This document shows, piece after piece, positions 5,309 through 7,574 of a stretch of 55,886 bases of DNA. The DNA lies in assembly GCA_016937695.1 (NCBI GenBank), contig JAFGWC010000118.1, positions 1-55,886 on the forward strand, written 5' to 3'. Positions within the stretch are counted from its first letter, which is position 1; the number at the start of each line of letters is the position of its first letter. The stretch is from Bacteroidales bacterium (GTDB lineage: Bacteria > Bacteroidota > Bacteroidia > Bacteroidales > NBLH01). The position numbers were made by a program, and so were the translations under genes. The notes under the pieces were generated by a model, which was given only the letters and a program-made list of their open reading frames with translations, searched no databases and was not told where the DNA came from.

Positions 5309-5770
5309 TCAGATAATTATTTCAATATGTTCTTCATCTGTAATTTTTTCGCAATACAGGCACTTTAATGCCACATTACTTTTAGATAAAACCTTAAATT
5401 TTGTTTTAACCTTTTCGTGATTAGTAACACATTTTGGATTAACACATTTTGCGATTCCTATAATTTTATCAGGAACGCTAACTAGCTTTTTATCAATTAC
5501 TTCGTAGTTTTTTATTATGTTAAGTCTTGCTTTTGGTGCAACTAAAATAATTTTACTGATTTCTTCATCTTCAAAAAACTTGTTGCTAAGCTTAATAATT
5601 GCTTTTTTACCTAATTTCTGACTGTCTAAATTTGTTCCAAAAGTAACTTGATTTTCTAAATTCATTAAACCAAGTATTCTGATAACTTTAAATAAATTTT
5701 TTGCTGGAATATGATCAATAACAGTTCCGTCTTTTATGGCGCTAACTTGTAATTTTTTATTTTCTTTCAT
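5309..5770 (-). CDS. pyrI: Aspartate carbamoyltransferase regulatory subunit PyrI
   Basis: 153 residues, the usual PyrI length. The N-terminal allosteric domain starts LQVSAIKDGTVIDHIPA and contains the nucleotide-binding features of the family. The C-terminal zinc domain carries four cysteines in the expected pattern: Cys109 and Cys114 (CVNPKC) and Cys137 and Cys140 (CLYC). It forms the dodecameric ATCase with PyrB and confers CTP/UTP inhibition and ATP activation. It follows pyrB by 21 nt, so the two are one transcript. Confidence 0.95.
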   Translation of the reverse strand: MKENKKLQVSAIKDGTVIDHIPAKNLFKVIRILGLMNLENQVTFGTNLDSQKLGKKAIIKLSNKFFEDEEISKIILVAPKARLNIIKNYEVIDKKLVSVPDKIIGIAKCVNPKCVTNHEKVKTKFKVLSKSNVALKCLYCEKITDEEHIEIII

Positions 5771-5791: not shown

Positions 5792-6700
5792 TTATTTTAA
5801 ACCTAAAATGCTTGATATAATTGCTTGGCGAGTAAATACTCCATTTAATGCCTGAGTAAAATAATAGGCTTTTGAATTGTCGTCCACATCTTCATCAATT
5901 TCATTTACTCTTGGCAAAGGGTGTAAAATTTTTAAATTTTCTTTAGTGTTTTCAAGCATCGAATTTTTTAAAACATAAACATTTTTTGTTTTCTCATATT
6001 CAACAGGATCAGAGAATCTTTCTTTTTGAACACGAGTCATATAAATAATGTCAGCTTTAGAAATTATATCCGTAAATTCTGAGTGTTCGTAATATTTAAC
6101 TCCTAATTCATCTAGAATTAGCTTGTATTCGTCGGGGATTCTTAATTTTTCGTGAGAAATAAAATTAAAAACCGGATTAAAATTAGATAATGCAATTAAA
6201 AGAGAATGAACAGTTCGTCCATATTTTAAATCACCAACTAAGAAAACATTTAAATTTTCAAGAGTTCCTTGTGTTTTTTTTATCGAGTAAAGATCTAATA
6301 ATGTTTGAGTTGGATGTTGATTTGCACCATCACCGGCATTAATAACAGGAACATCAGACACTTCGCTTGCAAATCTGGCGCTTCCTTCTAAAGGATGTCT
6401 CATCACTATTAAATCGCTGTATTTACTAACAGTTCTAATTGTATCGTTTAAAGATTCACCTTTAGTAACACTTGAAGTGCTAGAATCTGTAAAACCGATA
6501 ATTCTTCCGCCTAATTTATTAACAGCGCTTTCAAAACTTAATCTGGTTCTTGTTGATGGTTCAAAAAATAAAGAAGCAATAACTTTGCCTTCTAAAATTT
6601 TTTGATTAGGATTTTCTTCAAAGTATTCAGCTAAATCAAGTATTCGATTTATTTCTTCTTTTGAATAATCATCAATTGATACTAAACTTCTATTTTTCAT
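5792..6700 (-). CDS. pyrB: Aspartate carbamoyltransferase catalytic subunit PyrB
   Basis: 302 residues, full length. The carbamoyl-phosphate loop [15 protein letters not shown] (residues 46-59), the mobile-loop lysine in SVTKGESL (Lys80), [12 protein letters not shown] (129-140) and [10 protein letters not shown] near the C-terminus are all intact. It catalyses carbamoyl phosphate + L-aspartate to N-carbamoyl-L-aspartate, the committed step of pyrimidine synthesis. The 262-nt region upstream holds a -7 promoter motif, a 12-codon leader ORF and a terminator-like hairpin (annotated separately), which suggests attenuation control as in enterobacterial pyrBI. Confidence 0.97.
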
Positions 6701-6785
6701 TTTTTAAAATTTATAAAAAAACACTTTTAATAATTAAACAAACTTATTTAGTAAAGAATTTTCACTCATAAAAACTATTAAACAT

Positions 6786-6816
6786 AAAAAAAGCAAAGTA
6801 AAAATACTTTGCTTTT
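6786..6816 (-). terminator. Terminator-like hairpin in the pyrBI leader (putative attenuator)
   Basis: Read on the minus strand, AAAAGCAAAGTA (6816-6805), a TTTT loop (6804-6801) and TACTTTGCTTTT (6800-6789) form a 12-bp stem ending in a run of seven T (6792-6786). It lies 85 nt before the pyrB start and 147 nt after the stop of the YigZ-family gene. It could terminate the upstream operon, attenuate pyrBI, or both. Confidence 0.65.
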
Positions 6817-6853
6817 AGTTTAATTTATGTCTTATATTTAGCACTTCATGCAT
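6815..6853 (-). CDS. Putative pyrBI leader peptide (12 residues)
   Basis: An ATG at 6853 opens a 12-codon frame reading MHEVLNIRHKLN, with its TAA at 6817-6815 overlapping the first bases of the hairpin's 5' arm. A ribosome reaching this stop would cover that arm and block the terminator. The position relative to promoter and hairpin copies the logic of the enterobacterial pyrBI leader, although the peptide is much shorter and not similar. A frame this short can arise by chance. Confidence 0.35.
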   Translation of the reverse strand: MHEVLNIRHKLN

Positions 6854-6878
6854 AACTATATCGTATTAAATTTCAATG

Positions 6879-6886
6879 CAAAGATA
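6879..6886 (-). promoter_or_regulatory. -7 promoter element for pyrBI
   Basis: Minus-strand TATCTTTG matches TAnnTTTG. Transcription from here would start near 6873, giving about 20 nt before the leader ORF and about 170 nt before pyrB. No well-spaced -33 TTG was found. Confidence 0.5.
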
Positions 6887-6962
6887 AAGAAATTATTTTC
6901 AAAAAACTATAATTAACAATTATCTTATTTGATTGAAATAGGATTTTTATTTTAAAAATATT

Positions 6963-7574
6963 CTAGTTTGTATCTGTTTTAATATTTAAAGAGTGCATTA
7001 AATTTAATTTATTTATGGTTTGTTCATAAATATTTTTTCTGATTTTAATTTCAATAAAACAATTATCAGTAAAATTTTGATTTATTATTTCAATTCCATC
7101 ATCTTTTAAAACTCTCATTACATCATTCATTAAAGGATAATTAAAACTTAACTTGATTTTTATCCCAATTGTTTTTGTAATTACATTAGAATTTTGAATT
7201 GCTTTTAAAGCAGCTGATTTATAGGCTTTTATAAGTCCCGGAATTCCAAGTTTTGTGCCGCCAAAATATCTAACTACAATAATTAATATGTTTGTTAAAT
7301 CGGCAGCTCTTATTTGTCCTAAAACAGGTGGTCCTGATGAATTTGCTGGTTCTCCATCATCACTTGAGTAAAAAATGTCTTTTTCTGCACCAATTCTGTA
7401 TGCGTATACATGATGGCGTGCATCGTGATGTTTTTTTCGTATTTGGCTTCTGTATTGTTGAATTTCTTCGTCAGTTTGTACCGGAAAAGAATAAGAATAA
7501 AATTTACTTCCTTTATCTTTGTAAAAGCCTTCAGATGGCTTAGATATTGTTTTATAAATGTCTTCTTCGCTCAA
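6963..7574 (-). CDS. YigZ/IMPACT (UPF0029) family protein
   Basis: 203 residues. The N-terminal UPF0029 domain contains the family hallmarks KKHHDARHHVYAYRIG, the DDGEPA turn (here DDGEPANSSGPP), and VVRYFGGTKLGIPGLIKAYKSAA. The C-terminal ~65 residues form the small ferredoxin-like DUF1949-type domain. IMPACT/YigZ proteins are linked to translation control in eukaryotes; the bacterial role is not established. It starts 2 nt after the stop of the DMT permease gene, so it is the third gene of a tight minus-strand operon. Confidence 0.9.
   Translation of the reverse strand: MSEEDIYKTISKPSEGFYKDKGSKFYSYSFPVQTDEEIQQYRSQIRKKHHDARHHVYAYRIGAEKDIFYSSDDGEPANSSGPPVLGQIRAADLTNILIIVVRYFGGTKLGIPGLIKAYKSAALKAIQNSNVITKTIGIKIKLSFNYPLMNDVMRVLKDDGIEIINQNFTDNCFIEIKIRKNIYEQTINKLNLMHSLNIKTDTN

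Follow-up and report, generated by a model that had tools for sequence, protein, structure and literature searches.

A candidate ribosome-occlusion attenuator before pyrBI in Bacteroidales, with short leader frames running into a terminator-like hairpin

Ribosome-mediated attenuation of the pyrBI operon is a textbook case of transcriptional control in enteric bacteria. In Escherichia coli K-12 the leader ORF pyrL precedes pyrBI and overlaps an intrinsic terminator, whose hairpin lies 50-30 nt before pyrB; pyrL itself ends 3 nt before that gene. A related geometry is found in terminators of an engineered E. coli construct (PMC4824070), in which, according to the available portion of that article, the stop codon overlaps or lies close to the hairpin and the ribosome is able to cover its 5' arm, but there a long gene stands in the place of the short leader. 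The same portion reports that an E. coli terminator is repressed when the stop codon lies within a few bp and is fully active when it lies beyond ~30 bp, and that repression is much less frequent for terminators located within 100 bp of the start of a coding region. Within the Bacteroidota, flavobacterial leader-peptide attenuators (PMC9723704) share with the locus studied here the TAnnTTTG type of promoter and a short ORF before a terminator; in the excerpts available from this source, however, they are suggested for amino acid operons, and a search of the same text found no pyrB leader. A transcriptome of Bacteroides thetaiotaomicron (PMC7366714) is stated, in its available part, to contain short ORFs in long 5' UTRs, and the term pyrB is absent from its main text. 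Our search of one literature collection found no description of a pyrB attenuator in Bacteroidota among the matches listed. To our knowledge, the coupling of transcription to translation has been little studied in this phylum, where it would become testable if the reading proposed below is true.

We analyzed a window of 55,886 nt (the whole stretch of DNA under study, from contig JAFGWC010000118.1 of a Bacteroidales bacterium), in which pyrB and pyrI lie downstream of a gene of the UPF0029 (YigZ) family (table 1). A first-pass annotation of this region had read on the minus strand a TATCTTTG element, a 12-codon ORF, a 12-bp stem and a run of seven Ts in this order, with the ORF stop codon overlapping the 5' arm of the hairpin by two bases. 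All these elements lie where it had put them, including the two shared bases (stop codon at 6817-6815), and Pfam confirms pyrB, pyrI and the UPF0029 gene. The TATCTTTG box sits in the gap of 147 nt that separates the stop of the UPF0029 gene from the hairpin. The latter has 12 pairs, three of them G-C, around a loop of 4 nt; since this stem takes in four of the seven Ts, its core amounts to 8 bp (GCAAAGTA/TACTTTGC) rather than 12, the rest being A-U pairs. The same hairpin is terminator-like on the plus strand too. The available text of PMC9723704 locates this type of box at -12 to -5 in a flavobacterium; on the same spacing, we infer a putative transcription start near 6874, some 20 nt 5' of the ATG.

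Table 1. Features of the pyrBI locus and its upstream region in the window, in order of transcription
Feature	Coordinates	Strand	Basis
UPF0029 (YigZ-family) gene, upstream	6963..7574	-	Pfam UPF0029
-7 promoter box TATCTTTG, TAnnTTTG type (putative)	6879..6886	-	sequence match; same octamer before leader in L007, L008
Leader ORF, 12 codons, MHEVLNIRHKLN and stop	6815..6853	-	sequence; translation predicted
Intrinsic terminator-like hairpin, proposed attenuator	6789..6816	-	fold; core GCAAAG/CTTTGC kept in 8/8 loci
T7 run of terminator, four Ts paired in stem	6786..6792	-	sequence
Further TAnnTTTG octamer TAAGTTTG, 3' of the hairpin and 5' of pyrB	6739..6746	-	sequence match
pyrB, aspartate carbamoyltransferase catalytic chain	5792..6700	-	Pfam OTCace_N + OTCace
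pyrI, aspartate carbamoyltransferase regulatory chain	5309..5770	-	Pfam PyrI + PyrI_C

The PyrB protein of E. coli is 53% identical to that of the window, but the two leaders differ in their anatomy: pyrL has 44 codons and runs through its hairpin, whereas the window ORF has 12 and stops at the hairpin, is without a U-rich tract and stands behind a box of the TAnnTTTG type. We nevertheless consider it probable that the region works as a transcription attenuator of pyrBI by ribosome occlusion, this being the best-supported reading of the sequence. RNA polymerase would start at the position given above and transcribe the short leader ORF, then the intrinsic terminator. A ribosome close behind the polymerase would come to sit at or near the stop codon on the hairpin and cover its 5' arm, so that the terminator would be blocked and transcription would read through into pyrBI; with no ribosome close, the hairpin would form and the transcript would end near 6786. 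The putative use of this promoter, the predicted translation of the ORF and the presumed balance of termination and read-through would then link pyrBI expression to pyrimidine supply, the signal read by the attenuator being either the UTP level or another one. This arrangement suggests that in these bacteria the ribosome may help to decide pyrBI transcription, as it does in E. coli. The shortness of the leader counts against occlusion unless the polymerase pauses, because early terminators are much less often repressed in the available data of PMC4824070.

Taken alone, the window provides limited evidence. Its TAnnTTTG matches number 120 versus 114 expected and those to TATCTTTG number 8 versus 5.1 expected; the box by itself is thus weak evidence, being near chance frequency, and we dropped the -7 box as a stand-alone argument. 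An ORF starting from the leader ATG extends to the hairpin in 46% of shuffles. The putative 95-nt leader is predicted to fold more stably than 199 of 200 shuffles (z -3.49), and among the 17 terminator-like hairpins on both strands of the window the layout is found in 2, one of them with an 'ORF' of 2 codons. As judged from these values, the observation in a single genome is real but weak, and its significance comes from the relatives.

Box, ORF and hairpin recur in the same order before pyrB in these relatives. Our survey comprised 268 distinct pyrB upstream regions, which are a sample of the pyrB loci of the order, drawn from among the matches listed. A first set of 208, obtained after dropping 13 paralogue loci and L204 (with a short upstream region) and merging exact duplicates, was later enlarged by 60. 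In the first set, the hairpin stands apart from any co-directional gene in 41 loci and immediately follows such a gene in 25, with no hairpin in the remaining 142. Around the 41 free-standing hairpins the box was found in 32 cases versus 5.4 in dinucleotide shuffles of the same regions, and an ORF reaching the hairpin (with its ATG 3-29 nt past the box) in 31 cases versus 0.59 in such shuffles; for 11 of these 31, L001 not being counted, the nearest ORF of at least 120 aa is divergent. When the comparison was made with other hairpins on both strands in 218 loci, the whole layout appeared in 34 of the 67 hairpins situated up to 150 nt from pyrB (a count that still includes L006, L210 and L151, to be discounted) versus 2 of the 262 others. 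Across all 268 regions there were 41 hits with box, ORF and hairpin and the ORF reaching the hairpin, of which 38 were retained after removal of L006 and L210, where the supposed ORF is just the 3' end of the preceding gene, and of L151, a near copy of L145. Since the loci are related, these counts are not independent trials.

The element is patchy, as 230 of the 268 upstream regions did not score; L142, L148, L149, L158, L160, L212 and others show the layout by eye, but their box or hairpin is imperfect and they stand outside the 38. Apart from the loci of named genera, which include Gaoshiqia (G. sediminis, L203), Anaerophaga (A. thermohalophila, L209) and Maribellus as well as candidate Butyricimonas and Barnesiella genomes, the 38 fall by manual assignment in 17 families (f1, f3, f11, f16, f22, f30, f32, f42, f56, f61, f72, f73, f79, f101, f104, f106 and f109). 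Where the sequence extends far enough, pyrB is followed by pyrI in 138 of 144 loci; among the 29 scored loci listed, this holds for all 27 with data. The earlier proposal of a terminator before pyrBI that a ribosome could block gains support in its main part: before pyrB the layout is far commoner than in shuffles and also commoner than at the remaining hairpins of these loci, and it recurs even where the closest ORF upstream is divergent.

The leader ORFs of the 38 loci range from 6 to 98 codons. In 32 of them, as in pyrL, the frame closes within or past the hairpin; in all 38 it closes at most 11 nt before it, the latter value being nearly built into the scan (limit 12), and 18 of them end at least 48 nt past the hairpin start. 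In 25 of the 38 the frame opens 4-9 nt past the box (p 1e-8 versus a uniform spread, which is a simple null), a spacing unlike that of E. coli pyrL, and the corresponding mRNAs would therefore be nearly devoid of a 5' leader; the window, where the ATG comes 25 nt after the box, does not have this near-leaderless form. Of 18 pairs, 15 have a pN/pS ratio below 1 (0.29-0.85), computed on whole leaders with the hairpin codons included; the three others, which are all the pairs of family f68, give values above 1 or undefined. This pattern suggests that the frame is better kept than the peptide. Inspection of the amino acid composition of the leaders, made without a formal statistic, revealed no obvious regulatory residue.

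From these features we tentatively envisage an old and much-diverged class of Bacteroidales elements, in which nearly leaderless ORFs overlap with a terminator ahead of pyrBI. What sets read-through might then be the speed of ribosome loading at the 5' end, or else slippage or the choice of start site at that end, rather than pausing at a U tract. The genus of the window would then carry a shortened form, with the stop codon on the hairpin. If Bacteroidales indeed share the layout with another mode of sensing, the operon and this sort of control would go together across phyla, either by descent or by convergence.

A strict attenuator of the E. coli type, in which low UTP stalls the polymerase at a U-rich leader tract and lets the ribosome catch up, is possible but in our view rather doubtful. 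The gene pair and the end-product pathway are the same, the ORF runs into the terminator much as pyrL does, and the L158 leader has, by eye, a long T-rich stretch before its imperfect hairpin. Against this, the 60 nt before the window hairpin contain no run of at least four Ts, and a T-rich tract reaches p<0.05 in only 1 of the 32 leaders (combined p 0.61); the test is a weak one, with even E. coli pyrL reaching no more than p 0.08. Within the limits of this weak test, a U-rich pause signal found no support, T-rich tracts not being enriched in the 32 leaders. Because no pause tract is visible and the test is weak, we retain the earlier notion that the region works like pyrBI attenuation but do not assign UTP as its signal, the UTP-dependent pausing in that notion having failed to find backing in the window or in the other leaders. 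Of note, the T-rich stretch of L158 (in the 300 nt before pyrB) encodes AFFFFP, which by eye recalls the PFFFP of E. coli pyrL.

The hairpin could alternatively do nothing more than terminate the UPF0029 gene, with pyrB transcribed from its own promoter past the hairpin, for instance at the octamer 6746-6739. That gene is co-directional and ends 147 nt upstream, and the 25 hairpins found directly after a co-directional gene in the first 208 loci resemble ordinary termination. We compared eight loci, namely those of the six genomes of the window's genus that have a pyrB orthologue (window included) and two of the neighbouring family f11; a seventh genus genome, G001, is without a close pyrB orthologue. 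The sequence GCAAAG…CTTTGC followed by a T run is present 5' of pyrB in all eight, across families f1 and f11, whereas the upstream gene changes: the window, L007 and L008 have UPF0029 there, L004 and L006 an M42 peptidase, to which the protein of L005 is similar by its C-terminus, and the nearest upstream ORF is divergent in L045 and L048 (ORFs of at least 120 aa considered). As the core stays before pyrB with different neighbors, including those where yigZ is absent, the suggestion of the first-pass annotation that the hairpin simply ends the yigZ-family operon is weakened, and we regard it as unlikely. The box placed between UPF0029 and the hairpin also speaks against it. The octamer past the hairpin might serve as a bypass promoter, but it occurs at chance frequency in the window, with no exact TAnnTTTG past the hairpin in L004-L008, and is probably a chance match.

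A search for the exact hairpin pattern in six genus genomes matched in four, once each and always just before pyrB; it is absent from G003 and G004, which both carry variants. A common genomic terminator sequence was rejected on this basis. Beyond the hairpin stem, the sequences of the genus are not alike. Retention of the leader ORF in relatives, on which the first-pass annotation had made its reading depend, is only partial: among the five genus relatives with pyrB it is found in L007, as an ORF of 11 codons that needs a GTG start and ends at the hairpin, and in L008, where 35 codons run through the hairpin up to the pyrB start, both behind the TATCTTTG octamer. The other three, L004-L006, are without a separate leader ORF; there the gap between the end of the upstream gene and the hairpin (or the hairpin core) is 5-15 nt. 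In family f11 the leaders of L045 and L048 have 33 and 41 codons and end 3 nt before the hairpin and inside it, respectively. The leader peptide of the window is not kept in L007 or L008, and the genus and f11 peptides are unlike each other. The unlike peptides, the GTG start of L007, the situation in L004-L006 and the second box-like octamer past the hairpin count against an attenuator, as do the patchy occurrence of the element and the pN/pS values of f68.

It is very improbable that the locus is an amino acid attenuator of the trp or his type, in which a stalled ribosome would shift pairing between antiterminator and terminator. A short ORF before a terminator is common to both, and leader-peptide clues precede flavobacterial amino acid operons in the accessible part of PMC9723704. 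However, the predicted fold of the 95-nt leader contains only the terminator, extended by pairing around 6832 with bases past the T run, and one weak small helix, with no pairing that competes for the hairpin 5' arm; an antiterminator hairpin was rejected accordingly. Moreover, MHEVLNIRHKLN has no run of one amino acid or of regulatory codons. The layout is also set apart from such attenuators because, in the portion of PMC4824070 at hand, their terminator is kept >20 bp from the leader gene, whereas here the two overlap.

A small regulatory RNA ending near 6786, with only incidental effects on pyrB, would agree with the compact, well-folded RNA predicted here but is highly improbable, given the divergence of the genus sequences outside the stem and the lack of any Rfam family at threshold. 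Indeed, tRNA was the only Rfam match at gathering score in the whole window, and the interval 6600-7000 gave no match above that score; a known RNA family (riboswitch or leader) was thus rejected for the leader region.

No comparable hairpin was found within 200 nt before pyrE or pyrD-like genes in the genome of the window (G000) and in G006, or before carA in G006, and a wider pyrimidine regulon in the genus was rejected for the genes checked. In G000 no CarA (TIGR01368) scored above the cut-off, the best value being 39.5 bits as compared with 456 bits in G006, and its absence may reflect either loss or an assembly gap. PyrB proteins of the window type (E 1e-60 or better) are present in 12 of 247 genomes across the class, 8 of the 12 belonging to the order of the window. 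Many of the attenuator hairpins outside the lineage of the window (L202, L205, L212, L215, L229 and others) have in common a CCAAC…GTTGG stem, which may indicate common descent, and L150 (in the 300 nt before pyrB) displays, by eye, two terminator-like hairpins in series.
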